A DNA stretch of 30,706 nt from a virus. Of this stretch, positions 1,565 to 28,398 are shown in pieces. The notes beneath the pieces are model-generated. The model was given only the letters and a program-made list of their open reading frames with translations. It was not told where the DNA came from and did no database searches. Position 1 is the first letter of the stretch. Each line of letters starts with the position of its first letter. The position numbers were made by a program, and so were the translations under genes. The stretch is taken from the IMG/VR virus record IMGVR_UViG_3300031857_016441, positions 1-30,706 of that record. One strand, 5' to 3'.

Positions 1565-2461
1565 TTAGGAATTAGGGGTATTTTTTTCAATCAATTTTAC
1601 AGCAAAGTCCCTAATAAGATTTGGTCCCAATGAATTCGCTTTATCATAAAACTCTTTTTTTCTATCAATTGGTTTTATTTTACCATTAAATGATGGAATT
1701 CTGTTTTCATAATCCTCCGTTATATACAAACCATCCAAAACATATTGCTGAATATCATATCCCAATTTTAAACCCACTTTTCCAGCTTCCATTCCATATG
1801 TATCTTCGGGACCATATCCACCAAATTCTTCAGGTATTGTAACAAATTCCCAAAATGATTTAGAATATAAGGTATGCATCCCACACCCAAATTTAATAGT
1901 AGGAATTCTTTGTGCTACCATTTTACCAACCTGCTGCGTATATGCACCATCAATCATTTTCTTATCGAGTGCATATCCATATACCGCATCTTTGTAATCC
2001 GAATGACATAAAACATCCCAACTGGCATCCCACCATTTTGCAAGAGAAGGTGAAACTATATACATACCATCTAATTGATAAGATACATCTAATTGATATC
2101 TAAGCTGCAACTCGTGAAATAGGATATCAGTATCACAAAATATAAACTGGTCATAATCTAATTTATAACTCTCTCTTTTTTGTTGAGTAGTTCCCCAGCA
2201 CGATTCATCCAGTATAATTTCATTTATGTTTTTAATACCATTAAAAAGTATAGCGAAACGGCTAACAAAGTATCCTTGCTTATATTCGCTATTTTCCCAA
2301 TCTGTTAATTTTGGATTTAAATTAAGAGTTACTTTGAATGTAATATCATCATTTTCATTTGTGTAAACCAATGCACGTCTAAATTGAAACATCAATCGTT
2401 CAACCATTTCCAATTCGGATGGCATAACGTGTATGCAAATAAGTGTTTTTTTCTTAGCCAT
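1565..2461 (-). CDS. GT-A-type glycosyltransferase-like protein
   Basis: This 298-residue protein looks like a GT-A fold glycosyltransferase. The strand FIFCDTDILF supplies a D-x-D pair (D110, D112), the usual metal and nucleotide-sugar ligands, and a later GGYGPEDTYGMEAG segment resembles the 'G-ED' acceptor-side motif of GT2/GT7-like enzymes. The N-terminal LICIHVMPSELEM replaces the more common 'vvIPtyN' strand, so it is divergent from classic GT2. No membrane segment is seen. Its start overlaps the stop of the upstream GT2 gene by one base (TAATG), suggesting coupled translation. It is the last gene of the glycan island. Donor and acceptor cannot be read from the sequence. Confidence 0.7.
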   Translation of the reverse strand: MAKKKTLICIHVMPSELEMVERLMFQFRRALVYTNENDDITFKVTLNLNPKLTDWENSEYKQGYFVSRFAILFNGIKNINEIILDESCWGTTQQKRESYKLDYDQFIFCDTDILFHELQLRYQLDVSYQLDGMYIVSPSLAKWWDASWDVLCHSDYKDAVYGYALDKKMIDGAYTQQVGKMVAQRIPTIKFGCGMHTLYSKSFWEFVTIPEEFGGYGPEDTYGMEAGKVGLKLGYDIQQYVLDGLYITEDYENRIPSFNGKIKPIDRKKEFYDKANSLGPNLIRDFAVKLIEKNTPNS

Positions 2462-3693
2462 TAAAATACGTTTTTAAAGAATGGAACTACCATGTCTTTT
2501 GTTCTTAAATTAAATATGTGTAGTTGGAATATATCCCACTCAAAGCTTCCCAATGAATCAGTTTGCTGAATTATAAATGGTATGTTTTTTATAAATGTTG
2601 TAAAATGTTCGTTGGTTATTTTAGAACCGTCAAACATAATTTGCACATCACCTTTCATTTCATCACCAATCGAATGAACTTTACTCGTAATATCAAACAT
2701 AGATTCTGTTTGCTCACTATTAACATAATCCACATACATACAATCGACATAGATATTATCACACCAAGGTTCTAAAGCTTTTAATAATTGTGGATGACAG
2801 TTATGAACCACAAATGTAGTATCGTATCGGTTTGGAACGATTGGCATCATTAACTCATCATGTAATACATCAGTATGCCACTTTCTCCACCACTCTTTAA
2901 ATTTATTTTGACGAAGTTTTGTGTATTCTTCTGAATCTTTTGGTTTGTACCACTTTGTCCCATCTGGTAAATCTATTACCCTTTCAATTTCAATACCATC
3001 TTTGAAACGGCTACCTCTACACGTCATATGATATACAAAAGCATCTCTACTTTGTATTAACTCATATTGTTGTAAATGAAATCTATTGAATATATCAGAA
3101 TCTTCTAATTCCATAGGTGCAAACAATTTATCATGTCCACCGATGCACACAAAATCTTCTTTATATAACATCCAAGGTGCAAATATACCTTGAGTTGTTT
3201 TACCTTCGGTTACATATTCGGTTTCATAAACGAACTTTTGAAATGCACGATTATCAAATGATTCCGGCTCCATTCCAAAATCCTCCACATACTTTTCAGG
3301 ACCGGGTGGATGTAATGGTGGTTCGATACGAGTAGCACTTACTACTGATAATGGTTTCAAGTGTTTTAGCATATTACCTACATAATTTTGTGTTACAATC
3401 ATATCCGAATGTAAAATACTAACAACCGGTGTTTCTGCTAATTGAATACCTTTATCATATAGAACCGTATGCCCAACTCTTTCAGGTCCTTCGTTTCTAT
3501 ATCCTTTAATATACGGATGTTTATCTTCCATCAATTGTACCCATTCCCAAGTCCCATCGGTTGAAGCATCATCTAATATTATTATATTGTGAGTATCACC
3601 ATAGCAATCTTCAATACTATTTACAGCTTGCTTTAAATATTTTACATTATTCCTACAAGGAATTATAAATGTTATACGTTGATATTTTGTCAT
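2461..3693 (-). CDS. GT2-family glycosyltransferase
   Basis: This 410-residue protein has a clear GT2 N-terminal domain: the strand ITFIIPCRNN, then IIILDDASTDGTW (37-49), and a metal-site region SILHSDMIV in which H-S-D (95-97) stands where D-x-D is usual. The acceptor-side motif ELEDSDIFNRF follows at about residues 214-224. A C-terminal extension of roughly 130 residues beyond the catalytic domain (from about 280) has no family I recognise and may bind the acceptor. The start shares one base with the stop of the upstream fusion gene, so translation is probably coupled. Family assignment is confident; the sugar transferred is unknown. Confidence 0.85.
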   Translation of the reverse strand: MTKYQRITFIIPCRNNVKYLKQAVNSIEDCYGDTHNIIILDDASTDGTWEWVQLMEDKHPYIKGYRNEGPERVGHTVLYDKGIQLAETPVVSILHSDMIVTQNYVGNMLKHLKPLSVVSATRIEPPLHPPGPEKYVEDFGMEPESFDNRAFQKFVYETEYVTEGKTTQGIFAPWMLYKEDFVCIGGHDKLFAPMELEDSDIFNRFHLQQYELIQSRDAFVYHMTCRGSRFKDGIEIERVIDLPDGTKWYKPKDSEEYTKLRQNKFKEWWRKWHTDVLHDELMMPIVPNRYDTTFVVHNCHPQLLKALEPWCDNIYVDCMYVDYVNSEQTESMFDITSKVHSIGDEMKGDVQIMFDGSKITNEHFTTFIKNIPFIIQQTDSLGSFEWDIFQLHIFNLRTKDMVVPFFKNVF

Positions 3694-5057
3694 TATTTCT
3701 TATAATTTTCTAAATAGTATTTTAAATCTTCCGGTGTTCCCAATCCCCACATCTTATCAATGTTGAATGTTTTTATTTTCTTACCATCTCCAATTGCTTC
3801 ATTGAAAGTAGGGCAAGTATAGAATTCATTATTAGTTCTGATATTCTTACTAATCATTTGTTCTGCATACTTAACATAATCAGAACCCTTTGCCCAATAA
3901 TAAACACCAACAGTTGCGATATCCGAAATTGGATTCTTCTCTGCTACTTCGGTTACATACCCATATTCATCTACTTTAGCGAATGACCATTTAGGGTGTG
4001 TTGCTGTAAATGTTAGAATGCCACCATCAACTTTTTGTTCAATCATCTTATACATAAACTCATTACTATCCCACTCTACGAATTGGTCAGAGTTTGCCAT
4101 AACTAACGGAGAATCGTTATCAATGAATTCTTTTGCTAATAAAGTTGTACACGCTGCACCTTCCGTCATACCATCCACTTCCACAATCTTACAATTAGGA
4201 GTGATTAAGTTTAGGAGAGTATCCAGGTTATACTTCTCTCTATGTTCTTTTTGTACTACATAAATAAATGTAGCATCTATGTTTAGGTTATCTACTACAA
4301 CTTGAATCATTGGTTTGCCTTCCACATCAATTAGTGGTTTTGGAAATGTATATCCAGCTTGTTGGAATCTACTTCCTGCTCCTGCCATTGGGATAAGAAC
4401 GTTCATCTTACCACCTTGCCATTTTGGTATGCTCATAGGTTTTGTTTGCTCTAATTTACGAATAATTTTTGATATTTCCAAATCATATGGATTATCAACT
4501 CTCAATACACTTGCTCTACTTCTACTTGCCGCTAATAATCCAGGTGGAGAATCTTCAACTATTAGAGTTTCCTCTGGTAGTACACCCATCATACTCATCG
4601 CCTTCCAATACATTTCAGGATGTGGTTTGCTATTTTTTACATCCTCATTAGAGAGGATTAAATCCATATACTCAATTAATCCTATCTTTGATAACATAAC
4701 CAATACAGACCTTCTAATTGAGTTTGAACAACATGCTAACTTATATCCTCTATCTCTTAATTCTTTGAAAACCGAAACCAGTACATGATTAGTTTGTAAT
4801 TGAGAAATAGCTTCTATTGTTAGATGTTGTTTTCTATACCAGATATCCTCATACAATGTAGAATTTAATCCCTTATTCTTCGTAAGTAATTCTAACTTCT
4901 GTGTTGTTTTTAATCCATCGTAAATTGAAAGATGTTCCGATTCAGTAATTACATATTTTTCATCAATTTCTTTTAGTGCCTGATTTAATGTATCATAGTG
5001 GATTTGTTTGGCCTCTACCAATACACCATCCAAATCAAATATTATTAATTTTGTCAT
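3693..5057 (-). CDS. HAD phosphatase-sugar nucleotidyltransferase fusion
   Basis: Two enzymes are joined in one 454-residue chain. Residues 1 to about 205 are a beta-phosphoglucomutase-type HAD domain: FDLDGVLVE with D8 and D10, CSNS (S111), K144 in KPHPE, and VEDSPPG (168-173). Residues about 218-454 are a nucleotidyltransferase of the glucose-1-phosphate uridylyl/thymidylyltransferase type: LIPMAGAGSRF (221-231), PKPL with K240, and MANSDQ in place of the usual metal-binding strand with aspartate. The chain could therefore process a sugar phosphate and activate it as a nucleotide sugar. This kind of pairing fits a heptose or deoxy-sugar route with the kinase at 6594-7349, but neither the sugar nor the nucleotide can be assigned. 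Confidence 0.87.
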   Translation of the reverse strand: MTKLIIFDLDGVLVEAKQIHYDTLNQALKEIDEKYVITESEHLSIYDGLKTTQKLELLTKNKGLNSTLYEDIWYRKQHLTIEAISQLQTNHVLVSVFKELRDRGYKLACCSNSIRRSVLVMLSKIGLIEYMDLILSNEDVKNSKPHPEMYWKAMSMMGVLPEETLIVEDSPPGLLAASRSRASVLRVDNPYDLEISKIIRKLEQTKPMSIPKWQGGKMNVLIPMAGAGSRFQQAGYTFPKPLIDVEGKPMIQVVVDNLNIDATFIYVVQKEHREKYNLDTLLNLITPNCKIVEVDGMTEGAACTTLLAKEFIDNDSPLVMANSDQFVEWDSNEFMYKMIEQKVDGGILTFTATHPKWSFAKVDEYGYVTEVAEKNPISDIATVGVYYWAKGSDYVKYAEQMISKNIRTNNEFYTCPTFNEAIGDGKKIKTFNIDKMWGLGTPEDLKYYLENYKK

Positions 5058-5058
5058 A

Positions 5059-6594
5059 TTATAATTTTATTTTTAAAGATTCCGATAACCCATATGTTTT
5101 CGTTATTGTATTTTCTATTGTTTCCATATTTTGCTTATGATGCAATTCTATCATATCTTTTTTAGAAAACGTTTCATATTTTTTTAAAAATAAGTTTTTA
5201 TCAAAATAATCTAGACCAATACCAACGCAAGTATAACCATGCCAACTAAAAAAACTGGTTTTAAAATAATTTAAGTTAGTAAAATCACTTGCAACCGGGC
5301 ATTCATTTTTCCATTTTTCATGCATAACTTTCAATGAAGGTTTCATTGGTGCTTGTTCCGTATAATATTTCCAAAATTCAGTGTCCTTTCGTTTTGTCAG
5401 ATAATGAAATTGTAAAAAATTTAAAATATCATCATTCATTTCGCAGAATCTATTATTGTACAATTCAACAATTTCATCGGTTGGATTATTTAAATCATAC
5501 CGATTTAATAAATCTAATTGAGTTATTGTTATCCATATTGAAGTTGCTTCCAATGGTTCGGTAAACCCGGTACTCAATCCTATACCAATACAATTATTTA
5601 CCCAAACTTTTTTGAAAGAACCCGCTTTAAAATTGATATTTTTAATTACCGATATTGGGTGTCCTAAATAATCTTCAACTTCTTTTTTTGCTTCATCTGG
5701 GTTAATGTACTTGTTATCGAAAATATACCCACACCCATGTCTAGATTGTAAAGGTGTTATCCACATCCAACCATATTTCATTGCAATTGCTCTAGTGTAT
5801 GGTTTTATATCTTTATCGGATGGTAGAAAAAATGGTATTACTGAATTTACAGTCAGATGTTCTTCATACGATTTCCATTCGGTTTTGTATAATCCACCAA
5901 GTACTAATCTTTTAAATCCTGTACAATCAAATACAAAGTCACATTTTATATTTTCTTTACTTTTTAAATGTATAATATCAATGTCACCTTTTTCATTTTG
6001 TGTGAAACTATCTACAATACCTTCTATTCGTTTAACACCTCTTTTTTCCGCCAAATTTCTAAAATATTTAGCACCCAACGATGCATCAAATTGCAAAGCA
6101 TAATAATTGGCTAATTCTAAATTATTTCCACTTTTAACAAATGGAGATTTATTATGTTTTAACAATGCATTCGATAATACACAATCATTTAGTGATAAAT
6201 TGTTTTTAATCAAATATCCGATGTATTCGTTTCCAATTGAAGTATCATACGGGGTTGTATTTGCATCATTAAAACTATAAGGAGAGCTTTTACTATTTGT
6301 AACTCCAAATGCGTGAAAATAGCTATTACCATCCCCATTCCAATTTTCAAAATTAATTCCTATCTTATAAGCTGCATTTGTTTTAGCAACAAAATCATTA
6401 AAATCAATTTTTAATTGTGCTAACGTTGATATGAATATAGGTATCGTGCTTTCACCCGCTCCCAATATACCAATTTCCGCACTCTCTACAACTTTTATAT
6501 CGGTATCTGAACCAAATAGTTTATTGGTGTACAAAGCAGTCAACCACCCTGCCGTGCCACCACCAATTATTACTATTTGTTTTATCTTGCTCAC
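5059..6594 (-). CDS. Flavin-dependent halogenase (tryptophan-halogenase family)
   Basis: This 511-residue protein, a normal length for the family, carries its diagnostic features: an FAD-binding GGGTAGW (11-17) right at the N-terminus, GAGEST (45-50), a lysine in YKIGINFENW (K77) that aligns with the catalytic lysine of PrnA/RebH, and a W-x-W segment GWMWITP (275-281) in which threonine replaces isoleucine of WxWxIP. GFTEPLEATS (343-352) gives the glutamate (E349) that aligns with the catalytic glutamate, with alanine where serine is usual. Such enzymes use FADH2, O2 and halide to halogenate electron-rich substrates. The start is GTG at 6594-6592, overlapping the upstream TAG by one base; it sits just before the FAD strand, so I accept it. 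No flavin reductase is seen nearby. Confidence 0.88.
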   Translation of the reverse strand: MSKIKQIVIIGGGTAGWLTALYTNKLFGSDTDIKVVESAEIGILGAGESTIPIFISTLAQLKIDFNDFVAKTNAAYKIGINFENWNGDGNSYFHAFGVTNSKSSPYSFNDANTTPYDTSIGNEYIGYLIKNNLSLNDCVLSNALLKHNKSPFVKSGNNLELANYYALQFDASLGAKYFRNLAEKRGVKRIEGIVDSFTQNEKGDIDIIHLKSKENIKCDFVFDCTGFKRLVLGGLYKTEWKSYEEHLTVNSVIPFFLPSDKDIKPYTRAIAMKYGWMWITPLQSRHGCGYIFDNKYINPDEAKKEVEDYLGHPISVIKNINFKAGSFKKVWVNNCIGIGLSTGFTEPLEATSIWITITQLDLLNRYDLNNPTDEIVELYNNRFCEMNDDILNFLQFHYLTKRKDTEFWKYYTEQAPMKPSLKVMHEKWKNECPVASDFTNLNYFKTSFFSWHGYTCVGIGLDYFDKNLFLKKYETFSKKDMIELHHKQNMETIENTITKTYGLSESLKIKL

Positions 6595-7349
6595 TAAAAT
6601 ACTTTTAAGTGTTTACCAACTTTGGTTACTCCTTTGTGTTGAACGGCAATTGTTGCGCATTCATTTCCATAAAGTATTGCACTTTCTATATCATTAGTTC
6701 TACAATATTGTATTGTTAATGCTGATATAAATGAATCTCCTGCACCACTATTATCCCTAACCTCAACTTCCTGTACATTGTATTCTTTATCCATATACTT
6801 ACATCCCTTTCCACTCATAGTTACAATTAACTTATCGTAGAACTCTTTGAAGTATTGCCCAGCTGCAATATTGTTTTCATACTCATGTTCATTTATCTTA
6901 ATAAATCTAGCACCTAACATTTTCTCATTCACAATCTTTTTAGTATCAATGAATACCGTATCATGCTTTGAGCAAATGTACTGAATGTCATCATACTCTA
7001 AAAATCCTTTGTTGTAATCCGATATGATAACTGCACAATAGTTTTCGAATGGAATGTGTTCTATGCCTTCAATTCTTTTTGATTTAGTAGAATCGGAATC
7101 TACTCTAATAATTTGGTGATTGGTTTTTTCCTCTACATATCTTGTTTTGGTAATAACTTCTTGATTTGTAATTAAATCAACTTCAACCCCCAATGATTCT
7201 ATGTTCTCATATACATTAGCTGCCATCCCACCTGTTTCAGTCTTTCTTTTAGGAATGAATACAGGAACAGGTGCTTCAGGACACAGCCTATTGGCTGTAC
7301 CATAAATGAATACATCTTTACAACTATCTCCTATAACTAATATTTTCAT
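6594..7349 (-). CDS. PfkB sugar kinase, heptose-7-phosphate-kinase-like
   Basis: This 251-residue kinase most resembles the kinase half of HldE/RfaE, which makes D-glycero-D-manno-heptose 1,7-bisphosphate. Specific matches are RLCPEAPVPVF (21-31), GGMAANV (40-46), SDYNKGFL (110-117), KINEHEYE (151-158) and DNSGAGDSF (199-207) with the catalytic aspartate D205. It is shorter than a typical HldE kinase domain (about 310-330), with less sequence between residues 60 and 100, and lacks the C-terminal cytidylyltransferase. A nucleotidyltransferase lies two genes downstream, in the HAD fusion. Assignment to PfkB is firm; heptose 7-phosphate as substrate is inferred from the motifs. Confidence 0.85.
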   Translation of the reverse strand: MKILVIGDSCKDVFIYGTANRLCPEAPVPVFIPKRKTETGGMAANVYENIESLGVEVDLITNQEVITKTRYVEEKTNHQIIRVDSDSTKSKRIEGIEHIPFENYCAVIISDYNKGFLEYDDIQYICSKHDTVFIDTKKIVNEKMLGARFIKINEHEYENNIAAGQYFKEFYDKLIVTMSGKGCKYMDKEYNVQEVEVRDNSGAGDSFISALTIQYCRTNDIESAILYGNECATIAVQHKGVTKVGKHLKVF

Positions 7350-7361
7350 AACTTTTTTATT

Positions 7362-7766
7362 TTACCAGCTTATTTCCCAATCTTTAAAATCGGCTGCTAA
7401 GCAATCAATTTTGTAATCTTTTCTACCACCCATAACTTCTTGAATCTTATTTTTAGCTACGTTACGGATGCCATTCAATCCATGTGTTAATTCTAAATTG
7501 TTACCATCTTTAATTCCCTTACGATAGTTTGATTCATTGTGCCAAATATGCAAGTTCATTTGTGATAATACTACAATTGCTCTGATTGTTTCTGCGGTGA
7601 TTGGTTCTTTGCTTTCATTCAAATATAATTGAATATCATGCACAATTGCTTTAATTTCTTCTCCGTATTCTGCTTTGTGTTCGGCTATAAATACTTCTTT
7701 CAATTGTACGATAGATAATCTATCTACTAATTCACTCAATGTTGGTAAATACTTTCTTTCTTCCAT
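7362..7766 (-). CDS. Small helical protein, possibly DUF4254-like
   Basis: This 134-residue protein appears fully helical. The pattern LSELVDRLSIVQLKEVF near the start, then NLHIWHNESNYRKG and HGLNGIRNVAKNKIQE, recalls the DUF4254 family, small helical proteins often found beside lipopolysaccharide genes in Bacteroidota. I make that link from remembered sequence patterns only. No catalytic motif is evident. It lies 2 bases after the SDR gene and 12 bases before the kinase gene, so it is expressed with sugar-activation enzymes and may be an accessory or binding protein for that pathway. Confidence 0.55.
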   Translation of the reverse strand: MEERKYLPTLSELVDRLSIVQLKEVFIAEHKAEYGEEIKAIVHDIQLYLNESKEPITAETIRAIVVLSQMNLHIWHNESNYRKGIKDGNNLELTHGLNGIRNVAKNKIQEVMGGRKDYKIDCLAADFKDWEISW

Positions 7767-7768: not shown

Positions 7769-8707
7769 TTAAAGGTTTGTAAAATTTTGATTGTTTTTGT
7801 TTACTACGAATTTATATGCACTCATCAATTGTTTGATTCCGTAATCTAAATCATAAATTGGTTTCCATCCTTTGCTTTCTAATTTCTCATTAGATACGAT
7901 ATAATTTCTTTTATCAAAATCTTCTTTGAAATCATCTTGCTTAATCACCAATGATGGAATATGTGATTTAATTTTTTCTGCTAATTCTAATTTACTCAAG
8001 TTAGCGGTTGATAACCCTACATTAAATGCCTGTCCTTTACATGCTTCATAATTTTCAATTATAAATTGGAATGTACGAGCTATATCCTGAACGTGGATGT
8101 AGTTTCTTTTAAAGTGTGCTTCAAACAATACTAAATACCCATCAACTACACTCTTATAAACAAAATCATTTACTAATAAATCAGTTCTCATACGAGGTGA
8201 TACACCAAATACAGTTGCTAATCTTAATGATACACCATTACCATTTGCTAACATAGTGTTCTCTGCATCACATTTAGTTTTAGCGTAAAGTGATAATGGA
8301 TTGAATGGAGATTCTTCTGTAATAATTGAATCGGATGAACCATATTGTGAGTTAGTATTAGGTAAGATTAACTTTTGGTCATCTCTTAATACTTCAACAA
8401 CATCCGCTACTTGCTGATAGTTTACTGCTATCGTTAATTCTGGATTAGCTTTACACGCAGGCATACCCACAATTGCTGCTAATGGAATAATAACATCATG
8501 CTCACTTACTAATTTTTGCAATAACTCTTTATTTCTAACATCCCCTAGTTCAAATTTGAATCCCTCTCTTTTGAATAGATGTAAAAGCGATAATTGGTCA
8601 TACATTAAGTTGTCCAATACCGTAACTTCGTAGCCGTTATTTAATAACTGCTCTGTCAATGTAGAACCTAAATATCCCGCTCCACCTGTGATTAAAACTT
8701 TATTCAT
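7769..8707 (-). CDS. Extended SDR nucleotide-sugar epimerase/dehydratase
   Basis: This 312-residue protein is an NAD(P)-dependent extended short-chain dehydrogenase/reductase. It has the Rossmann motif TGGAGYLG (7-14), the NAD ribose-contact region VLDNL, and the catalytic pair Y141/K145 in LYAKTK. NTNSQYG at 117-123 supplies the Thr/Ser of the catalytic triad. Enzymes of this type oxidise a nucleotide sugar at C4 and then epimerise, dehydrate or decarboxylate it. The segment LRLATVFGVSPRMRTDLLVNDF matches the substrate-binding side of this family. The exact reaction cannot be read from the sequence; a C4 epimerase is the default guess. Confidence 0.83.
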   Translation of the reverse strand: MNKVLITGGAGYLGSTLTEQLLNNGYEVTVLDNLMYDQLSLLHLFKREGFKFELGDVRNKELLQKLVSEHDVIIPLAAIVGMPACKANPELTIAVNYQQVADVVEVLRDDQKLILPNTNSQYGSSDSIITEESPFNPLSLYAKTKCDAENTMLANGNGVSLRLATVFGVSPRMRTDLLVNDFVYKSVVDGYLVLFEAHFKRNYIHVQDIARTFQFIIENYEACKGQAFNVGLSTANLSKLELAEKIKSHIPSLVIKQDDFKEDFDKRNYIVSNEKLESKGWKPIYDLDYGIKQLMSAYKFVVNKNNQNFTNL

Positions 8708-9370: not shown

Positions 9371-10132
9371 TTAATTATACCAGTATAAGTTTGGTTGTAA
9401 CGGCATTGCCACTGTCCAATCGTGGTAATCTTGCTTTACCATTAGAAAATTGATATTGTGTTTCTTTAAAGTTGTAATCATAAAATAAACTTTATCCTTT
9501 AAGTATTCAAAGGAATGATTATTTTCCATACCACGTTTTGTTAAAAAGGTTTCTACTATTTTTGTTTCAGCCGGTCTATTAATAACGGTTGATTCCTGAT
9601 AATCAAATAAATCAAGCATATCAGTTACGGCCCCACTTATACAATAATCCATTAAGTATCCACCACTAACAGTTCCAACATCCGCCGAATTTACATATGC
9701 AAAAAATCCTAATTTATCAAAATTAAAATTGTTAATAAATTCATGTAGTTGTACAATAAATTGGTCACTTCTCATTCTGATACAATACTTTTTATTTTGT
9801 TTATTTAAATGATTAGCACCTAATAAAGAAGCCGCACATTGTTTATTAACATTTCCAAATCCAGAAAAGCTAGGTACATCTAAAACGATAACTTCAAATC
9901 CATTTTCTTTTAATGTATCTATTTTATAATCTGGCTCACTGTTATCTACAACAAATAAAACATTTTTTATACCTTTATAAAAATCTAAAAGTATATCCAA
10001 ATGTGTCAAATGTCCTATTATCATTATATTAACATCATCGCTAAATCCGTTTCTAACTTCTAAAGAAGTATTCTTGCAATATTCTCTTACATATTCTGCC
10101 GAATAATATTTTCTGTATTGTTCCCAACTCAT
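9371..10132 (-). CDS. WavE-like glycosyltransferase
   Basis: This 253-residue protein resembles WavE-type lipopolysaccharide synthesis proteins, which are GT-A-like. The supporting pattern is a 'N-x-Q' segment (FGNVNKQCAASLLGA) followed by KYCIRMRSDQFI, matching the family's conserved 'iktRsDq' strand, in which the aspartate is the likely metal ligand. The C-terminal half ends in DYHDWTVAMPLQPNLYWYN. It begins in an ATGA overlap with the upstream SDR gene (10129-10132), so it is probably translated by re-initiation and made in step with that enzyme. No membrane segment is seen. The call to WavE is from pattern memory; glycosyltransferase in general is more secure. Confidence 0.65.
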   Translation of the reverse strand: MSWEQYRKYYSAEYVREYCKNTSLEVRNGFSDDVNIMIIGHLTHLDILLDFYKGIKNVLFVVDNSEPDYKIDTLKENGFEVIVLDVPSFSGFGNVNKQCAASLLGANHLNKQNKKYCIRMRSDQFIVQLHEFINNFNFDKLGFFAYVNSADVGTVSGGYLMDYCISGAVTDMLDLFDYQESTVINRPAETKIVETFLTKRGMENNHSFEYLKDKVYFMITTLKKHNINFLMVKQDYHDWTVAMPLQPNLYWYN

Positions 10133-11103
10133 ATTCTGTTTTTTATATCGTTATATACTATTGTTAATCCATCTCTTAAAGATGTTTGTGCTTCCCATCC
10201 TAATTCTTGTTTTACCAAACTACAATCACACCATTGTCCCCAAATGACTGTGTTCTTTGTTGTATCCCATTCAATATTAATATCTTTACCACTAATTTCA
10301 ACAACATTATTTGCTATTTCCTCAATGGTACATCTCTCACCTTTACCAACATTATACGGTCCAACTATTTGTTTTGTATTCATTGCTTCAATCATTTTTT
10401 CAATACAATCCAATGCATCATTGATGAAACAATAAGAACGAGTTTCCTTTCCAGTTCCCCATACACTAAATGGTACTTCAGGATATTTGATTGCTCTATG
10501 TGAGAATACAGGAATTACTGAACCCGTTTCTAATCCATAATCTTGATTTGGTCCGTAGATACCAATGAATCTTGCTATTGCTACTTTCAACCAATCGTTT
10601 TCAACTACCGCTGATTCAATCGCCTTCTCACCAATCAATTTTGCCCAACCATATGTTAGTTCAGGATTTGCTGGGTAAGCTTCTGATTCTTTAATCATTG
10701 GGGAATCTGCTATCGTTTGTAATTCCTTTGGATAAATGTGTGCAGATGATGCGTAAAAGTATGTATCTATTTTATTCTCAATAATACCTCTCAATACATT
10801 ACTATCCATTTTTATATTAGAGTTCATCACTTCATATGGCTTTGATAGATACGTTCCAATACCACCAACTTTGGAAGCTAAATGAATTACCATATCTTTA
10901 CCAATAAAATATCTACTACATTCATCATAGTCTGTCAAGTCACTATGTACCATTTTAATAGATGGAATAACATCCGAAATAAATTCAATTCTACCTCTTT
11001 CCAAATTGTCTATTACCGTAATATCATGCCCTTTCTCAACCAATCGTTTAACTAAATGAGAACCTATGAATCCGGCCCCACCTGTAATTAATATTTTTTT
11101 CAT
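10129..11103 (-). CDS. SDR epimerase resembling GDP-mannose 3,5-epimerase
   Basis: This 324-residue extended SDR has TGGAGFIG (7-14) and the catalytic pair Y151/K155 in YGWAK. The closest remembered pattern is GDP-mannose 3,5-epimerase: YASSAHIYPKE, then KESEAYPANPELTYGWAK, then WGTGKETRSYCFINDA. In the plant enzyme the position after SSA is a cysteine that acts in epimerisation (SSACIYP); here it is histidine (H122). The reaction may therefore differ, for example a single epimerisation or a C4 reaction. It would work on a GDP- or other NDP-hexose made for the neighbouring transferases. The start shares one base with the stop of the next SDR gene upstream (TAATG). Confidence 0.8.
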   Translation of the reverse strand: MKKILITGGAGFIGSHLVKRLVEKGHDITVIDNLERGRIEFISDVIPSIKMVHSDLTDYDECSRYFIGKDMVIHLASKVGGIGTYLSKPYEVMNSNIKMDSNVLRGIIENKIDTYFYASSAHIYPKELQTIADSPMIKESEAYPANPELTYGWAKLIGEKAIESAVVENDWLKVAIARFIGIYGPNQDYGLETGSVIPVFSHRAIKYPEVPFSVWGTGKETRSYCFINDALDCIEKMIEAMNTKQIVGPYNVGKGERCTIEEIANNVVEISGKDINIEWDTTKNTVIWGQWCDCSLVKQELGWEAQTSLRDGLTIVYNDIKNRI

Positions 11104-12050
11104 TATAATCTTACTTTATCTTTATTGTTTGCATACCAATCGATTGTAATTTTTAAACCATCTTTTAGTTTAGTTTCAGGAACATATCCAAATGCCTTTT
11201 CAAATTTAGTCATATCATAAAATCTTCTAGGTTGTCCATCGGGTCTATCTGAATTCCAAACTATGTTTCCTTTATAATCTACTAATTCTGCAATCGTTTC
11301 AACCAATTCTTTAACAGTTGTTTCAACTCCAGTGCCCAAATTAAAAGGACCACTTTCTTTACAATCAACCGAATCTATAATAGCTTTAACAGCATCATCA
11401 ACATATAAAAATTCTCTAGTTGCTTTACCAGTACCCCACACTTCTACACTATCTAACTTATTTTCATTAGCTTCAATAAATTTTCTAACCAATGCAGGTA
11501 CTACATGCGATGCTTCTAAATTGAAGTTATCACCCGGACCATATAAGTTTGCCGGAAGTAATATTGTAGAATCAAATCCATATTGTTCTCTATATGCCCA
11601 ACTTTGTATAATTAAATTTTTCTTAGCCAATGAATATCCATATGAATTTTCATCTGGTAATCCTAACCAAAATCCTTCTTCGGTGAATGGTACAGGTAAA
11701 TGTTTAGGATATCCACACCCAGCTGCAAATGATACAACTTTTTGTACATTAAATAAATGCGATGAATGCATCACATTAACTCCCATCATAATATTTTCAT
11801 AAAAAAATTCAGCAGGTTTTGCCTTATTAATTGCAACTCCACCAACTTTACCAGCTAAATGAAATACTATATCAGGTTTATTCAAAAGAAAATAATCTTC
11901 AGTTTCATCCTGATTGATTAGATTCAATTCTGTCGATGATGGTGTTAGTATATTCGTTGCACCCATTTGTGTTAGAATTCTAACTAATGCTTTACCAACA
12001 AACCCATTAGCTCCAGTTATTAGTATTTTTTTGTTTATCCAACTTTTCAT
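11103..12050 (-). CDS. GDP-L-fucose synthase-like SDR with altered active site
   Basis: This 315-residue protein matches GDP-L-fucose synthase (GMER/WcaG), which epimerises and reduces GDP-4-keto-6-deoxymannose. Conserved points are TGANGFVG (12-19), Y139/K143 in GYSLAKK, LPANLYGPGDNF, and ASHVVPALVRKF, whose histidine aligns with the active-site histidine. The expected GSSCIYP stretch reads AAGCGYP (109-115): the cysteine is kept (C112) but the catalytic serine is replaced by alanine (A110). It is a paralogue of the gene at 12722-13672, which keeps the serine. It could have reduced activity, a different substrate, or form a heterodimer with its paralogue; these are inferences. Confidence 0.84.
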   Translation of the reverse strand: MKSWINKKILITGANGFVGKALVRILTQMGATNILTPSSTELNLINQDETEDYFLLNKPDIVFHLAGKVGGVAINKAKPAEFFYENIMMGVNVMHSSHLFNVQKVVSFAAGCGYPKHLPVPFTEEGFWLGLPDENSYGYSLAKKNLIIQSWAYREQYGFDSTILLPANLYGPGDNFNLEASHVVPALVRKFIEANENKLDSVEVWGTGKATREFLYVDDAVKAIIDSVDCKESGPFNLGTGVETTVKELVETIAELVDYKGNIVWNSDRPDGQPRRFYDMTKFEKAFGYVPETKLKDGLKITIDWYANNKDKVRL

Positions 12051-20838: not shown

Positions 20839-21351
20839 TTATTCTTCGGGTTTATCTTCTTCTTTTGTTTCCTTTTTATTTAAAAGTTTTTTTAAATATT
20901 CATTATCTAATTTCATTAAACTGATTCGTTTAACACCGGATAAAAGATATGTTCTATATGAACCCGGTGCCATCTTATATAAAGAATCATTTTTAACTGC
21001 ACTAAATGTTCTAGTTCCAATTCTGTTATCTCTCTGTAAAAGGGTATCTATTTTAGATTCCATAAGAGCGTTATCGATATCGGAAGCTTTTGTTGTTCTT
21101 TTAAAATTCTTTTTTAACCATTGAAAAAATTTTTCCGGTCTAACTTGTGTAATTTTTATACACAATAATTTTTTATCAGGTGTTATACCTAATAAAAAAA
21201 CTATTGAAGTTTTTGTACCGCTTAAAGTTTTTACTTTCCCATCGGCATATTCATATGTAACTATTTTATAAATGTTTCTTGGAATTAATTGATTCTTCGC
21301 AACATTTGTTTCTTGTATAAAAAATTTACTATATGATTGTCCGTACGGCAT
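20839..21351 (-). CDS. Unknown 170-aa basic protein
   Basis: I do not recognise this protein. It is lysine-rich with a likely beta-rich first half (PRNIYKIVTYEYADGKVKTLSGTKTSIVFLLGITPDKKLLCIKI) and a helical, highly charged end (KKLLNKKETKEEDKPEE). There is no signal peptide, membrane segment or obvious catalytic motif. Its composition is more like a virion or nucleic-acid-associated protein than an enzyme, yet it lies between two glycosyltransferase genes, 8 bases from one and sharing one base with the other (TAATG). It may be a structural gene around which the island grew, or the target of the transferases; both are guesses. Confidence 0.6.
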   Translation of the reverse strand: MPYGQSYSKFFIQETNVAKNQLIPRNIYKIVTYEYADGKVKTLSGTKTSIVFLLGITPDKKLLCIKITQVRPEKFFQWLKKNFKRTTKASDIDNALMESKIDTLLQRDNRIGTRTFSAVKNDSLYKMAPGSYRTYLLSGVKRISLMKLDNEYLKKLLNKKETKEEDKPEE

Positions 21352-22640
21352 TATACTTTGTTAAGTTTTGGTATTTGAATTTTTGCTTTATTTAGTTGTG
21401 GTACGTTAAATGGTACTACCTTTGGCGAAGCCTTTACATTTGATTCCAAAATCTGAATAAATCGCTCATTCATTTTTTCTAATGTAAAGTTATTCAATGT
21501 GTTTTCTTTCAAACCTACTGATTTTGATAAATACTTATCATAATTCTTATAAACATCATATATTTTATTTGCCGCAACACTATAATTAACAGTAAACCAT
21601 TGTGCCTCTTTAAGAATAAATTGGTCTGCTGCTGATTCATCTACTGGTGTTAATGAACCTTCTAATAAGTCAGCGTATTCGCCTGGTAAGAAATCCAATT
21701 GCCCACTCCAACCACTAGCTATAATTGGTTTACCTGTCAAAGTAAATTCGGCCATAGGTCTACCATATCCTTCTCCTTTAGCAAATGAAATCATTGCTTT
21801 AATTTTTGGATTATGATATAAGTTACTTACATCAATTTCTTCCATATCACCATGTATCAAATATACAGATGGACATTTATCACCAAATGATTTCAATACT
21901 TCATCTATTTTTTTACGAGTTTCTTCTCTATCAATTACACTAAATCCAGCGTGAGATGTTTTAACAACTAATGCGGGTCTTTTATCTTTTGGTAGGTATT
22001 GGAATACAGTTGCAAATGTTTTAATTGCCATACCAATATCTTTTCTATCTTGTCCCAATGAACCTTTCAACCAATGTCCTACAATTAAGAAACAAAAATC
22101 TTCTTTCACATTTTCCAATACATTATTACCAGTTCCTTTAGAAAATATTTCAGTATCAACCCCTTCAAAAAGAACTTCAATTGGAGTTGTTGTTCGTATT
22201 TCACCAACAATCTGTCCACTAGCTTGGTCTTTTTGCTGATATACAGTTCCACCTAAATTATTTTTTGTAAAATTCGATGGTACGATGATTAGATTCATTT
22301 TGTTAGAACCATCAATAAAATCTTTTGGAGCAATTGTGGTTTCTACACCAGCAGTTACACCAATGTTATAATGTCCTTTTGGCTCAAATTCGTTTGCTAC
22401 TGAAACTTGCATAAACACATCCGGTTTTTGTTCAATACCGGTGATAACTCTCTCTAACATCCATCTACCAAATTCAGATTCGCCATCTACTTGATTTTGT
22501 GGAGTGTTACCCCAACGAAGTGGAATAATTTTAATGTCATATTTGTCCATCTTGCGTAGGGATTTCATTAAATCTCTACAATGGTCTCCATAACCACTAC
22601 GAGTGAATATAGGTCCTTGAAATACTAATGTTGGTTTCAT
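21351..22640 (-). CDS. GT4-family glycosyltransferase
   Basis: This 429-residue GT-B protein belongs to the GT4 superfamily. Its N-terminal domain starts PTLVFQGPIFTRSGYGDHC, the glycine-rich acceptor loop, and its C-terminal domain has FLIVGHWLKGSL, then SFAKGEGYGRPMAEFTLTGKPIIAS, in which E290-GYGRPMA-E298 is the E-x7-E donor-binding motif, and FLPGEYADLLEG, the region following it. VPSNFTKNNL and LFEGVDTEIF are the usual inter-domain landmarks. Its sister gene at 22651-24033 has the same architecture. Retaining transfer from a nucleotide sugar is expected; the sugar is unknown. Confidence 0.87.
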   Translation of the reverse strand: MKPTLVFQGPIFTRSGYGDHCRDLMKSLRKMDKYDIKIIPLRWGNTPQNQVDGESEFGRWMLERVITGIEQKPDVFMQVSVANEFEPKGHYNIGVTAGVETTIAPKDFIDGSNKMNLIIVPSNFTKNNLGGTVYQQKDQASGQIVGEIRTTTPIEVLFEGVDTEIFSKGTGNNVLENVKEDFCFLIVGHWLKGSLGQDRKDIGMAIKTFATVFQYLPKDKRPALVVKTSHAGFSVIDREETRKKIDEVLKSFGDKCPSVYLIHGDMEEIDVSNLYHNPKIKAMISFAKGEGYGRPMAEFTLTGKPIIASGWSGQLDFLPGEYADLLEGSLTPVDESAADQFILKEAQWFTVNYSVAANKIYDVYKNYDKYLSKSVGLKENTLNNFTLEKMNERFIQILESNVKASPKVVPFNVPQLNKAKIQIPKLNKV

Positions 22641-22650
22641 TCTTTATAAC

Positions 22651-24033
22651 TTATTTAATTTTAAATACCTCAAATCTTTGGCGAGGTTTCCAATTTTCAA
22701 ATGTAGATTCAATTCCATCTACTAAAGTTTGGCACATATTCGTATGATTCAAACCGGCTTCATTTATGAAAAATTCTCTACCAATCAATCCATTTGCTTT
22801 ACGAACTTCTTTTGGTGTGTTATACACTTTCTCAATTGCTTCTGCAACTTCCGTAATATCAACTCTATCATCCCAAATATAAGGTGTTGGTACTGAACCT
22901 GCCAATGATTGTGCTCTACTCCAAACAGGAGTTACCCAAGGACCAGGTTCCGCTTTACCTTCCCACTCTCTCCATTGGTGTAATGAACCAATCTTAATAT
23001 AATCGTCTGCGGTCAATACTTTACCATTCACTTTAAATCCACATTGGTCTTGCAATCCACCAGTTACGTTTACAATGATTGGAGTTCCAGCCATTACTGA
23101 TTCTGCAGTTGCTAATCCAAATCCTTCGTTATTAGCTATGTTGATTGTTGCATCTGCTATATTATAAAGAAAATTTAATTCTTGTTGTGGTCTTCTTTTT
23201 TCAGAGAAGATAATGTTACAATTAGGTGCTACTGCATCAATTACAGCTGGCAAATCCGTACCATTCTCATCCACAGGTTGTGTATGCATTACTAATACAC
23301 ATTTATCCGCTTTCTCTTTACCAATTTTATCACAAAACTTTTGAAATGCTACAATAACATCTGCAGGTTGTTTTCTTCTGATGTTACGATTACTCCAATA
23401 TAATACGAATTCATAATCTTTACCACCTAAAATTTCTTTACGATAATCATCAGGCACTTCGGTTGGTTTGTACATATCGGTATTGATACCATGTGGTACA
23501 TAACTTACTTGCCAATCCTTTTTAGGTTTCCAAGTTGGTTTAGTATCTAATGCTGATAATCTTTTAATAATACCATATGTTTGACGTGAGATACAACCAA
23601 TCCAATCACAACTTTCATAGTAGTTACGATTGTATAATGGGTCTGGTAAATCATCCCAAATTGCGTAAAATAAAATTGGAACATTTTGTCTAATTTCATG
23701 TTCGATATCATATAACCATGTCCAATAACGAGGGTCAGTAAAGTGTAAGATAGCATCTGGTTTTTCGGAATTAATTAGTTGTCTAATCAAATCTGCATTA
23801 CCATATCCATTCCAAGGAAGTATCTTTAGAGAAGCGTCAGGTATACCATAATTGGTTTGTATATCCTCACTAACATCTAAAACTCTACCCTGTTCTGGGT
23901 GGTTAATTGCCGCTCCAACTTGAAACCAATCGTACTTATGTATAGTACCTAAAACCAATTCTTTTGAAACGGTGGCTATACCACTCGCCATTCTTAAATC
24001 ATCTGAAAGTAACAGTATTTTTTTCTTTGCCAT
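22651..24033 (-). CDS. GT4-family glycosyltransferase (first gene of the island)
   Basis: This 460-residue GT4-like protein begins ILLLSDDLRMASGIATVSKEL with the acceptor-binding glycine loop, has SYVPHGINTDMYKP at the domain boundary, an FVLYWSNRNIRRKQP donor-phosphate region with the expected arginine/lysine, and NEGFGLATAESVMAGTPIIV with the E-x7-E motif (E303, E311). NVTGGLQDQCGF follows as expected. The long segment from about 355 to 400, KAEPGPWVTPVWSRAQSLAGS, is an insertion relative to typical GT4 enzymes. It is the first transferase transcribed in the island, 9 bases after the ribbon-helix-helix gene's stop. Confidence 0.87.
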   Translation of the reverse strand: MAKKKILLLSDDLRMASGIATVSKELVLGTIHKYDWFQVGAAINHPEQGRVLDVSEDIQTNYGIPDASLKILPWNGYGNADLIRQLINSEKPDAILHFTDPRYWTWLYDIEHEIRQNVPILFYAIWDDLPDPLYNRNYYESCDWIGCISRQTYGIIKRLSALDTKPTWKPKKDWQVSYVPHGINTDMYKPTEVPDDYRKEILGGKDYEFVLYWSNRNIRRKQPADVIVAFQKFCDKIGKEKADKCVLVMHTQPVDENGTDLPAVIDAVAPNCNIIFSEKRRPQQELNFLYNIADATINIANNEGFGLATAESVMAGTPIIVNVTGGLQDQCGFKVNGKVLTADDYIKIGSLHQWREWEGKAEPGPWVTPVWSRAQSLAGSVPTPYIWDDRVDITEVAEAIEKVYNTPKEVRKANGLIGREFFINEAGLNHTNMCQTLVDGIESTFENWKPRQRFEVFKIK

Positions 24034-24316: not shown

Positions 24317-25189
24317 TTATTTATCCGCCTTACCATCACATATCCCTCTATTCATAAATTCGCACCACTTACAATTCTTTTTGTTTTGTCCAGGTACTTT
24401 AGGATATGGTATATTTTTAAAACTCCCTTCATCATCAAATACAGTATTGATAAATTCCATAAACTCATCATATACTTTATTTACGGATGGTGTTCCATTT
24501 GGCGGAACGTGTTTTGATATGTAAGGAATAGGAAATGCCGAATCTTCAGGCAACTTCCTTCTCATAATCTGATATTCTACTTTTATTTTAGTAATAGGAA
24601 CATTAAATAATTCCGAATAGTATTTTTTATATAATAGGATTTGTGAATTTTTCATCTTATCAGCTTTCTGATACTGATTCCAACCCATTGTAGATGTCTT
24701 AAGGTCGATAATGATAATTTCATTGGATGCCAAATCTCTTAATACGATGTCTATGAATCCGATAAAATGAACACCTGGTTTAATATTCGCATTTAATGGA
24801 ATTTCAATACCAACTAATTCATAACCAGATTTGGAATAAAACTTACTACAATATTTTTTAAACCAAGTAAGAATTCTTCTACCATCACCATAAAATTCTT
24901 CTAATTCAATTTGAGTACAAGGAGTACCCTCACTAAGTGCTTCTTTTTCTTTGGTGAAGTTTTCTTTCATTCTATCTAATAACAATCTATCCAACTCAAT
25001 TTCATCGGCTTGTTTTTTAGATACACCATACATCACCGATAAGTAATGTTGAATTGTTTCGTGCATTGAACTACCAAAAAGAGTGTGAATGTTACCAGAA
25101 CTTTCACCTAATTTATCTATGTAATTTAACTTATATTGTTGGGGGCAGCTACTCCACATTGAGTACTGCGAAAATGATACTTTTGCCAT
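24317..25189 (-). CDS. RecB-like PD-(D/E)XK nuclease with probable Fe-S cluster
   Basis: This 290-residue protein belongs to the PDDEXK_1/Cas4/AddB-type nucleases. It has C15 in SSCPQQYKL, a conserved histidine in GSSMHETI (H43), D147 in FIGFIDIV, and D162/K164 in IDLKTS, giving the metal site. Three more cysteines, C273, C276 and C284 in CKWCEFMNRGIC, complete the four-cysteine set that ligates a 4Fe-4S cluster in this family. Such proteins process DNA ends with 5'-3' or 3'-5' polarity. No Cas genes or helicase are adjacent; the neighbours are clamp-loader and polymerase genes, so a role in phage replication or recombination is most likely. A promoter-like sequence lies just upstream. Confidence 0.88.
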   Translation of the reverse strand: MAKVSFSQYSMWSSCPQQYKLNYIDKLGESSGNIHTLFGSSMHETIQHYLSVMYGVSKKQADEIELDRLLLDRMKENFTKEKEALSEGTPCTQIELEEFYGDGRRILTWFKKYCSKFYSKSGYELVGIEIPLNANIKPGVHFIGFIDIVLRDLASNEIIIIDLKTSTMGWNQYQKADKMKNSQILLYKKYYSELFNVPITKIKVEYQIMRRKLPEDSAFPIPYISKHVPPNGTPSVNKVYDEFMEFINTVFDDEGSFKNIPYPKVPGQNKKNCKWCEFMNRGICDGKADK

Positions 25190-25203
25190 TTGTTTTATTT
25201 ATA

Positions 25204-25235
25204 TAAAGATACGAAAAAATGGTGATATTACCAAA
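25204..25235 (-). promoter_or_regulatory. Bacteroidota-type promoter before the nuclease gene
   Basis: On the minus strand TTTG (25235-25232) is followed after 20 bases by TATCTTTA (25211-25204), one mismatch from the Bacteroidota consensus TTTG-(19-21)-TAnnTTTG. The ATG lies 14 bases after the -7 box. The box is preceded by a T-run and CG, giving TTTTTTCGTATCTTTA, nearly identical to the site before the 122-aa gene (28399-28429). Confidence 0.65.
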
Positions 25236-25685
25236 TTAAATTTTGAGTTTTAACTTGGTAATTAATTTAGGTTCAGTACCATACGCCTCTGCAATCCGTT
25301 TGATTTCCTCTCTACCGGCTACACTTTCGTATAATATATCAATATATTCGGATGCTTCTTTTGTAGAAACTTCGTACCATTTAGCTACTAAATCGATAAT
25401 CCATTGTTCATAATCTTTTACCGATTTGCCCTTCATGTATCGAAGGTATGTTTTACCTTTTGGTATAACACCGATTAGTGCTTTATAAACTGCTTTAGGT
25501 GGTGCTTCTTGAATATAAGGTTGTATCTCTGCTATCATTTCTACCCAATCAGGGTTCATAGACATGTAACGTATGATTAACCAGTTACTCCAAGTCTTTT
25601 TATCAGCATCATCTAATTTATCCCAATACTTTGGGTCCTGTTCTTTTGTAATTGCGTTGATATGGTCAAATAATCCTTTAGCCAT
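25236..25685 (-). CDS. 62: Clamp-loader small subunit (T4 gp62-like)
   Basis: This 149-residue protein matches T4-type gp62, which joins four gp44 subunits to load the sliding clamp onto primed DNA. The supporting pattern is GLFDHINAI at the start, WSNWLIIRYMSMNPDWVEMI, the central VYKALIGVIPKGKTYLRYMKGK and a helical remainder, together with its position close downstream of gp44. It is shorter than T4 gp62 (187 residues), mostly at the C-terminal end. Its start overlaps the zinc-ribbon gene's end by 8 bases. The call relies on both sequence and gene order. Confidence 0.8.
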   Translation of the reverse strand: MAKGLFDHINAITKEQDPKYWDKLDDADKKTWSNWLIIRYMSMNPDWVEMIAEIQPYIQEAPPKAVYKALIGVIPKGKTYLRYMKGKSVKDYEQWIIDLVAKWYEVSTKEASEYIDILYESVAGREEIKRIAEAYGTEPKLITKLKLKI

Positions 25686-25989
25686 TTGTATCTAAATCTA
25701 TTTTTGGTTCAGCTGACATTTTATCTTTTGCTTCTAATGCTCTTAATTCAAGAGGTTTAAATGGTTCGAATTCTTCGCCACAACTACCACATATAAGTAA
25801 ATCAAATGGAATAACCATATCTTGTGCCCCACCAAATGATAACTTTGATAATCTTCTTACTTTTATAGTTGATATGAATTTATCATATCCACAATTCTCA
25901 CATACCATCGGTAATGATTGTGAAATATCTACTTTAGGTTGTCCTCCCGGCATTTGCGGAACGTCACCTTGTCCAATAATGTTTGCCAT
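25678..25989 (-). CDS. Zinc-ribbon protein of unknown role
   Basis: This 103-residue protein has two C-x2-C pairs, CENC (30-33) and CGSC (67-70), which should bind one zinc ion in a ribbon fold. About 34 residues of beta-type sequence separate them (KFISTIKVRRLSKLS and MVIPFDLLIC). The first 25 residues are glycine/proline-rich and probably flexible. It lies between the two clamp-loader genes, which are normally adjacent in T4-like phages, overlapping gp62 by 8 bases, so it may be co-made with the clamp loader and act in replication or late transcription. No firm function can be given. Confidence 0.7.
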   Translation of the reverse strand: MANIIGQGDVPQMPGGQPKVDISQSLPMVCENCGYDKFISTIKVRRLSKLSFGGAQDMVIPFDLLICGSCGEEFEPFKPLELRALEAKDKMSAEPKIDLDTNG

Positions 25990-25990
25990 A

Positions 25991-26932
25991 TTATATTAAA
26001 TTTAAAATTTGAATTAATGTTGCCGCTGCAATAATTTCTTTATCTATTGCTACTGCGGATTTAGCCACCCCATCTCCCAATACAAGAATAACGTTTGCTG
26101 TATTTTCTCCTGCATACTCATCAACCTTATCATATAGTAATGTATAAAGGTCAGAAAAATCAGTTGCCTTTGAATCTAAAATAGCCTGCCTAATATTCAT
26201 ATATTTATTTCTCTTATCATCTTTTGATTTAAGAATTTCCAAAACTTTCATTTTGTAATCATTCTCTAAAAGATTTTGAACATCTACTTGCAATTTACCT
26301 TTAAGAGAGTTTAATTGACAAGTATTAATAATTTTACGAATATCAGGATAAGATGAATCAATAATTGGAACTAAATCTTTCGGGTCAAATTCAACGCTTT
26401 CCGCTCTTAAAATTTTACTCATTTGAATAGCAACATCCTTTTTAGTAGGTGGTGTTATTTGGAAAGTTTGACAACGGCTTTGTATTGGTTCGATAATCTT
26501 TTCAACATAGTTACAGGTCAAAATAAATCTACAATGTTTACTGAATGTTTCCATTAAGTTACGAAGGATTGCCTGTGCGTTTGGTGTCATATAATCAAAC
26601 TCATCTAATATAATGATTTTATATTTTTTAAAACCCATAGATGATGCGAAGTTCTTCACCTTTGTTCGTACTGTCTCAACGTTATTTTCATCCGATGCGT
26701 TTAGAATCATATAATCACAATCAATTGATTTTATAATCAATTTTGCCAACGTTGTTTTACCAGTACCGGCTTTTCCAAAGAACAAAAGATGTGGTACATC
26801 TTCGGTTTCAATATAACCTGCTACTTTATTTTTTAAATGCTCATTACCTACATAATCATCCAATTTAGATGGGCGGTATTTTTCTACCCATAGTGAATGA
26901 TTTATTTGTTCTTCTTCTTTAAATTCAAACAT
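25991..26932 (-). CDS. 44: Clamp-loader large subunit ATPase (T4 gp44-like)
   Basis: This 313-residue AAA+ ATPase matches the large clamp-loader subunit of T4-like phages, related to RFC. It has WVEKYRPSKLDDYVG near the start, Walker A GKAGTGKT (53-60), Walker B IIILDEFD (106-113), the sensor-1 ILTCNY segment and the arginine-finger motif QSRC (151-154). A C-terminal helical collar domain follows from about residue 230. ATP hydrolysis drives clamp opening and loading for the family-B polymerase encoded 1.5 kb upstream. Length agrees with T4 gp44 (319). Confidence 0.95.
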   Translation of the reverse strand: MFEFKEEEQINHSLWVEKYRPSKLDDYVGNEHLKNKVAGYIETEDVPHLLFFGKAGTGKTTLAKLIIKSIDCDYMILNASDENNVETVRTKVKNFASSMGFKKYKIIILDEFDYMTPNAQAILRNLMETFSKHCRFILTCNYVEKIIEPIQSRCQTFQITPPTKKDVAIQMSKILRAESVEFDPKDLVPIIDSSYPDIRKIINTCQLNSLKGKLQVDVQNLLENDYKMKVLEILKSKDDKRNKYMNIRQAILDSKATDFSDLYTLLYDKVDEYAGENTANVILVLGDGVAKSAVAIDKEIIAAATLIQILNLI

Positions 26933-26937
26933 ATTTT

Positions 26938-27570: not shown

Positions 27571-28049
27571 TATTTTCCGGTTGAACCAAAACCACCATCA
27601 CCTCTTTCGGTATTTGATAATTCTTCTACTTCCATAAATTCAATTGGTGGATACGGTATAATCATAATTTGTGCAATTCTATCACCTACTTTATACCAAT
27701 CATTTACATTAGTATGAGATGCTTCATTTACTTTCATTTCATCATACATAGCTTCGCCGCCAAATAATTTATTAAAAGTAGCTTGTAATTCTCCTCTATA
27801 TCCACTATCAATTACACCAACTGAATTACTTAATTGTAAACCAGTCTTTCTAATCGATGAACGAGGGAATACTAATCCTACGAATCCTTCAGGTATTTCT
27901 AAAGCGATACCTGTACCGTATGTGATTTGTTCAGGCGTATCTTTAAGGATTTCAGTTGCTACTAAATCCATCCCAGCATCACCACCTTTGGCGTATGTTG
28001 GAATTACAGCATTAGGCTTCAGTTTCTTTATTTTCACTTGCATATTCAT
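27570..28049 (-). CDS. dut: dUTP diphosphatase (trimeric dUTPase)
   Basis: This 159-residue enzyme cleaves dUTP to dUMP and pyrophosphate, keeping uracil out of DNA and feeding thymidylate synthesis. All five family motifs are present: AGMDL (25-29), PRSS (62-65), GVIDSGYRG (78-86) with the catalytic aspartate, GDRIAQ (122-127) and the C-terminal flexible RGDGGFGSTG (149-158). Length is typical. The start at 28049 overlaps the upstream gene by 38 bases; a second in-frame ATG at 28043 (Met3) is possible and would still retain the conserved fold. It is a normal member of T4-like replication blocks. Confidence 0.96.
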   Translation of the reverse strand: MNMQVKIKKLKPNAVIPTYAKGGDAGMDLVATEILKDTPEQITYGTGIALEIPEGFVGLVFPRSSIRKTGLQLSNSVGVIDSGYRGELQATFNKLFGGEAMYDEMKVNEASHTNVNDWYKVGDRIAQIMIIPYPPIEFMEVEELSNTERGDGGFGSTGK

Positions 28050-28380: not shown

Positions 28381-28398
28381 TTTATGTTTTTTACAATA

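Follow-up and report, generated by a model that had tools for sequence, protein, structure and literature searches.

Does the position of a halogenase gene inside a phage glycan operon reveal what the enzyme acts on? The question is raised by a viral DNA of 30,706 bases (the window), a complete IMG/VR record that is probably a fragment of a larger genome. A sequence-only reading had located a flavin-dependent halogenase (FDH) at 5059-6594, which proved correct with the gene on the minus strand, and had taken its place in a sugar operon to suggest that the target may belong to the glycan or to a glycosylated protein. As that reading noted, halogenases are already known in phages: cyanophage halogenase genes (prnA) have been recognized since the early cyanophage genomes (PMC2984593; PMC3037559) and occur in 20 of 153 cyanophages (PMC10452541), and VirX1 has been characterized structurally and biochemically (PMC8407142). 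Though these genes are common, for none of the phage halogenases does the literature cited here name a natural substrate, and in the open-access literature searched we found no paper discussing one in a glycan operon. The enzyme described below is of a known type; what is new is its placement, together with a natural comparison in which a nearly identical phage operon is found with and without the halogenase.

The gene (5059..6594, minus strand) has an intact frame of 511 codons running from a GTG start to a TAA stop. Its product matched Pfam family PF04820 (Trp_halogenase; E=1.8e-100, 337 bits against a cut-off of 21, residues 6-463) and PHROG 2928, 'tryptophan halogenase' (3e-108). Every match among PDB sequences was a flavin-dependent halogenase, beginning with Tar14 (6nsd, 1.1e-71), followed by PyrH and BrvH, and extending down to VirX1 (6qgm, 4.7e-49) and finally a weak match to CmlS. 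An AlphaFold model built from a 56-row alignment was confident (pLDDT 90.0, pTM 0.90), and structural comparison aligned 473-483 of its residues with SttH, AbeH, PrnA, Xcc4156 and BrvH (Z 46-48), the top match reaching Z 48.2 (rmsd 2.2, 479 residues aligned) and VirX1 Z 37.3. Foldseek agreed with this ranking. After the PF04820-type enzymes, which aligned over their full length (Z 37-48), came CndH and Bmp2 with partial coverage (Z 31-33), and these are FDHs too. Thus, on the combined basis of sequence and predicted structure, the open reading frame encodes a flavin-dependent halogenase.

Computation also places the catalytic positions. A pattern search located the FAD motif GxGxxG as GGGTAG at residues 11-16, and mapping onto PyrH (2wet) paired K77 with the catalytic K75, E349 with the catalytic E354, and E48 with E46. 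The FAD loop and both catalytic residues had been named beforehand, with the proviso that a displaced K77 or E349, or a grouping with non-halogenating monooxygenases, would speak against a halogenase; both residues occupy the catalytic positions, and neither structure nor tree overturned the assignment. Among 69 viral homologues the K77 position is lysine in 68 and the E349 position glutamate in 65.

The Trp4 substrate clamp, in its group A and group B patterns, is the mark of tryptophan halogenases (PMC8269204), and a pattern search detected neither pattern in the window enzyme. Its halide loop, T351-S352, is the same residue pair found at the halide site of BrvH, an enzyme with an open active site that does not accept tryptophan (PMC5945002). 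Because the clamp is absent and the halide loop is of the BrvH type, we do not file the window enzyme as a tryptophan halogenase; it is probably an FDH of the non-tryptophan kind, resembling BrvH in its active-site features. BrvH itself (6frl, from Brevundimonas) shares the fold (Z 46.2), the catalytic lysine and glutamate, the T-S halide loop and the lack of Trp4, but it is only 26% identical, retains WxWxIP and PLEST, and is a bacterial enzyme active on indole, whereas the window enzyme is phage-borne and its activity is predicted. PyrH, PrnA and RebH likewise share the fold (Z 40-48), the lysine and glutamate positions and the glutamate at E48, and their HxFG and TIP segments have likenesses in the window enzyme, where HAFG (94-97) and STIP (49-52) are Trp2- and Trp1-like segments resembling HLFG and ATIP; unlike them, the window enzyme lacks the Trp4 clamp and carries PLEAT and WMWITP. 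VirX1, an iodinase of cyanophage Syn10, has phage origin, family, catalytic residues and fold in common with it, but is 28% identical and carries PLESTG. In a 106-row tree made by a quick method, the window halogenase fell within the main viral clade of PF04820 with L379, L077 and L004, and VirX1 fell in a separate group. In Syn10 the surroundings of VirX1 consist of a tandem pair of halogenases, and the annotation shows no sugar-nucleotide genes close by.

As judged from its genes, the window phage is T4-like and a distant relative of Microcystis phage Mel-JY01: its PolB is 49% identical to that of Mel-JY01 and ~32% identical to those of marine cyanophages. A T4-like replication block (24317..30700, minus) comprising a PD-(D/E)XK nuclease, clamp-loader genes, dUTPase and PolB precedes the glycan island, as it does in relatives and in Mel-JY01, where a glycosyltransferase island occupies the equivalent position after PolB, clamp loader and nuclease. 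No halogenase is annotated in the Mel-JY01 island, and Mel-JY01 is absent among the halogenase matches listed. Much closer relatives exist in IMG/VR, with identities of up to 97% for PolB, 93% for the kinase and 92% for the HAD-nucleotidyltransferase (HAD-NTase). Among these the framework gene order is conserved around variable blocks of methyltransferases, glycosyltransferases and other genes; in one of them (L257) there are genes for an acyl-carrier protein and an AMP-binding ligase.

The glycan genes of the window form a co-directional run on the minus strand. Nearest the replication block is a conserved region of two proteins (21351..24033), a group 1 glycosyltransferase (PF00534; 22651-24033) and a protein without Pfam match (21351-22640). 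These are followed by a gene of the UDP-GlcNAc 2-epimerase family (PF02350; 17454..18464), a GT11 glycosyltransferase (PF01531; 14598..15455) and four NAD-dependent epimerase/dehydratases (PF01370; 12722..13672, 11103..12050, 10129..11103 and 7769..8707). A DegT-family aminotransferase gene at 15455-16087, conserved in relatives, encodes 210 residues against a profile length of 360. Next come a conserved protein that adjoins the kinase in relatives (7362..7766, 134 aa, no Pfam match), a PfkB-family sugar kinase (PF00294, PHROG 8133; 6594..7349, 251 aa), the halogenase, a fusion of HAD phosphatase (PF13419) and NTP_transferase (PF00483) (3693..5057, 454 aa), a GT2 glycosyltransferase (2461..3693, 410 aa) and a conserved island protein without Pfam match (1565..2461, 298 aa). 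The immediate neighbours are therefore as first described, except that the label 'heptose-like' holds for part of the kinase: residues 2-60 match an HldE-type heptose-7-P kinase (4e84, 1.4e-9) and the remainder matches generic sugar kinases. No sedoheptulose-7-P isomerase (GmhA) was matched among the Pfam-searched proteins of the window, which is a fragment. Homologues of the window kinase were also seen near the clamp loader of T4-like phages, away from sugar genes (L267-L289).

The halogenase sits precisely between the kinase upstream and the HAD-NTase downstream as a single extra gene relative to the related phages. At the upstream junction (TAGTG, 6592..6596, minus) the kinase TAG overlaps the halogenase GTG, with the G at 6594 common to both, so that the reported one-base overlap is real; at the downstream junction (5055..5061, minus) the halogenase TAA is followed by one base and then the HAD-NTase ATG. 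In seven IMG/VR loci (L256, L257, L258, L259, L260, L264 and L265) the HAD-NTase comes straight after the kinase, the independent cases being fewer because L257 and L258, and likewise L256 and L259, look near-identical. The neighbour genes of these loci are 88-93% identical to those of the window, their flanks align to it as far as the kinase stop and again from the HAD-NTase ATG, and their kinase and HAD-NTase overlap stop to start, the junction sequence being ATGA or TAATG (shown for six of the seven). In L261-L263 the HAD-NTase is absent as well and the kinase directly adjoins the GT2 gene, which indicates that single genes have been exchanged at the kinase junction more than once.

The closest known halogenases, L379_a/b on contig G074 (47-50% identity, SH-aLRT 99 in the 106-row tree), form a tandem pair in a related phage that shares the glycan island with the window phage, but they lie outside that island. 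A foreign composition of the insert was considered and rejected: its codon distance of 0.075 is the same as that of its neighbours, and its GC content of 0.296 is low yet inside the island range. No further contig carrying this kinase-halogenase junction turned up and, since only a single occupied site is known, gain here rather than repeated loss rests on parsimony. The cassette architecture is observed directly in the alignments, and the best-supported account of it is that the halogenase was acquired as a one-gene cassette at the kinase/HAD-NTase junction of a variable glycan island.

The halogenase matched more than 590 viral stretches, and tandem halogenases are common among them. Their surroundings were analysed in 50 viral records that were long enough, counting genes within 3 kb of a halogenase against uniform placement; the records are fragments picked for a halogenase, which makes this a small test for glycan genes. 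2OG-Fe(II) oxygenases were enriched (28 of 59 within 3 kb against 17.1 expected, P 0.0005), whereas GT2 (4 of 15 against 3.2), epimerase (0 of 8 against 1.7) and PfkB genes (1 of 3 against 1.1) were not, although all three PfkB genes lay within 5 kb (P 0.12). Glycan linkage as a general rule for viral halogenases was therefore rejected; the partners that recur are 2OG-Fe(II) oxygenases rather than sugar genes, and one set also has a small membrane-like protein. Among bacterial relatives, homologues of the window glycan proteins were found near the halogenase in none of 80 loci.

The sugar-operon placement, described initially as unusual, is real and uncommon but not unique. In S-SSM7 the halogenase SSSM7_125 (T4-GC 212) abuts a nucleotidyltransferase and a PfkB/HldE-like kinase and adjoins the genes of an LPS-type cluster described in 2010 (PMC3037559). 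It differs from the window enzyme in being 24% identical and in its place on the tree, where it sits on a long branch close to the VirX1 group; its nucleotidyltransferase is small and separate (GC 304) rather than a HAD fusion, with isomerase and carbamoyltransferase genes nearby. Three IMG/VR loci (L019, L021 and L029) have halogenases beside HldE-like genes, and the L380 halogenase has a WavE-like protein and a CTP-transferase as neighbours. These sugar-linked halogenases are scattered over the 106-row tree, each of them nested within halogenases that lack neighbours of this kind.

The earlier suggestion of a glycan target from the operon position was not supported by these comparisons: the close relatives have the operon without a halogenase, the nearest halogenases stand outside any glycan island in a related phage, and glycan genes are not enriched around the 50 other viral halogenases. 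The comparative evidence lowers the glycan-target reading without removing it, and a glycan target is possible. Our preferred explanation, which we consider probable though well short of certain, is that this gene, inserted as a one-gene cassette into a T4-like phage's glycan island, specifies a two-component non-tryptophan FDH, which would halogenate an electron-rich and likely aromatic substrate. Counting against this explanation are the threonine in place of isoleucine in WxWxIP and the single occupied site.

From these data and the known chemistry of the family we infer the activity, halide, substrate and benefit of the enzyme as follows. Its placement would bring about expression together with the glycan operon. 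FADH2 would come from a host flavin reductase, as a search of 32 related viral records, fragments that give weak evidence of absence, turned up no PF01613 reductase, and with O2 it would form FAD-OOH, a step known for the family. FAD-OOH would then oxidize a halide held at T351-S352 to HOX, which would move through the tunnel to K77, with E349 orienting the halogenation of a substrate that would be electron-rich, most probably aromatic, and bound in a pocket devoid of the tryptophan clamp. HOX reacts poorly with saturated sugar rings. FDH chemistry, in which HOX acts by electrophilic substitution, requires an electron-rich target (PMC8407142), and a bare sugar ring is therefore unlikely to be the substrate; a protein-borne aromatic group, or one on a small molecule, would be a likelier target. 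The target is probably of the same kind that other viral halogenases act on, and a part in the operon product may come in addition. Despite the lack of glycan linkage elsewhere, the start/stop overlap and the mid-operon position favour co-function with the operon.

It is also possible, though we lean against it, that the halogenase is an auxiliary metabolic gene acting on a free host metabolite or pigment, such as indoles or phenolics, during infection, in which case the island would be a tolerant insertion region and the placement incidental. The strong variation of the island among relatives and the many genomic places in which relatives of the halogenase occur are consistent with this, and the characterized non-tryptophan FDHs BrvH and VirX1 accept free aromatics (PMC8407142). 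However, partner biosynthesis genes are absent, and the cyanobacterial hosts of known halogenase phages do not have the gene (PMC2984593).

Rather unlikely, in our estimation, is that the enzyme serves the operon by halogenating an aromatic (or enolisable) group on its glycan or on a glycosylated virion or host protein, giving a halogenated glycoconjugate. The halogenase does stand among glycan genes that all read in the same direction and shows the one-base overlap, independent cases of sugar-nucleotide neighbours occur in S-SSM7, L019/L021/L029 and L380, and the island genes of relatives are swapped singly, as expected of decoration genes. Set against this are the operons that run without a halogenase in close relatives, the absence of GT2, epimerase and PfkB enrichment, and the chemistry of the sugar ring; moreover, no aromatic precursor gene was seen in the window. 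Its narrower form, in which the halogen would be one of the island's interchangeable decorations, placed on an aromatic group of the operon's glycan or of its bearer protein, is unlikely.

We regard as quite improbable that this PF04820 protein oxidizes or hydroxylates its substrate instead of halogenating it, owing to its altered motifs. Pattern searches bore out the substitutions noted earlier: the WxWxIP position reads WMWITP (276-281; I280T) and the PLEST position PLEAT (347-351; S350A), and WxWxIP has been proposed to block monooxygenase action (PMC5945002). However, K77 and E349 are kept, WxWxxP retains its two tryptophans and its proline, and A350 is the norm among viral homologues (59 of 69), with T280 the exception (5 of 69). 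The FX[DE]PX[EFL] motif listed for FDHs is present as FTEPLE (344-349), overlapping PLEAT within a segment, FTEPLEATS (344-352), that includes E349 and T351-S352, and WxWxIP or its variants are missing from some active FDHs (PMC8407142). The structural ranking, with PF04820-type FDHs above CndH and Bmp2, also counts against this reading. A passenger gene useless to the phage, or an assembly join, would account for the single occupied site and the lack of a second contig with this junction but is very improbable given the intact 511-residue frame, the full set of catalytic residues, the tight junctions on both sides and the native codon usage.

Several further features were observed around viral halogenases. 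A protein of ~95 residues, which has hydrophobic stretches of membrane-like character and matches no Pfam family, usually lies directly downstream of the halogenase (L071:10256-10537 and homologues, alignment A4; L379:19072-19410); none was seen in the window. Searched on its own, this protein had a halogenase within 4 kb in 60 of 62 loci, directly upstream in 55, the loci being 71-100% identical to the query and partly one clade. A SET-domain-like gene directly follows the halogenase at L077:11523-11930 and, in reverse-complement coordinates, at L380 8375-8806 and L381 8190-8606 (PF00856 confirmed in L077 and L381, sequence likeness in L380); as a general partner it was rejected, being present in 1 of 50 contigs.

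Two to four halogenase genes occur per phage region in L379 (6879-9901 and 14167-17259, contig G074), L004, L041, L050 and L059. Some viral homologues have replaced catalytic residues (K to R with E to D; E to T; E to Q in two: L057:972-2507, L080:3886-5361, L041:4151-5578 and L013:545-2059) and, as partners of tandem copies, may have lost activity or taken on another role. A family of ~240 residues, whose representative has no Pfam match, adjoins halogenases at L010:7574-8362 (after VirX1), L001:9328-10014, L005:9295-10008 and other loci, standing between paired halogenases in L001 and L005. Finally, APS-kinase-like, sulfotransferase-like and carbamoyltransferase genes, and a small protein that we take to be DUF2061-like, recur near viral halogenases (L083:8985-9743, L065:7829-8428, L051:7839-8051 and L022:11467-13236).
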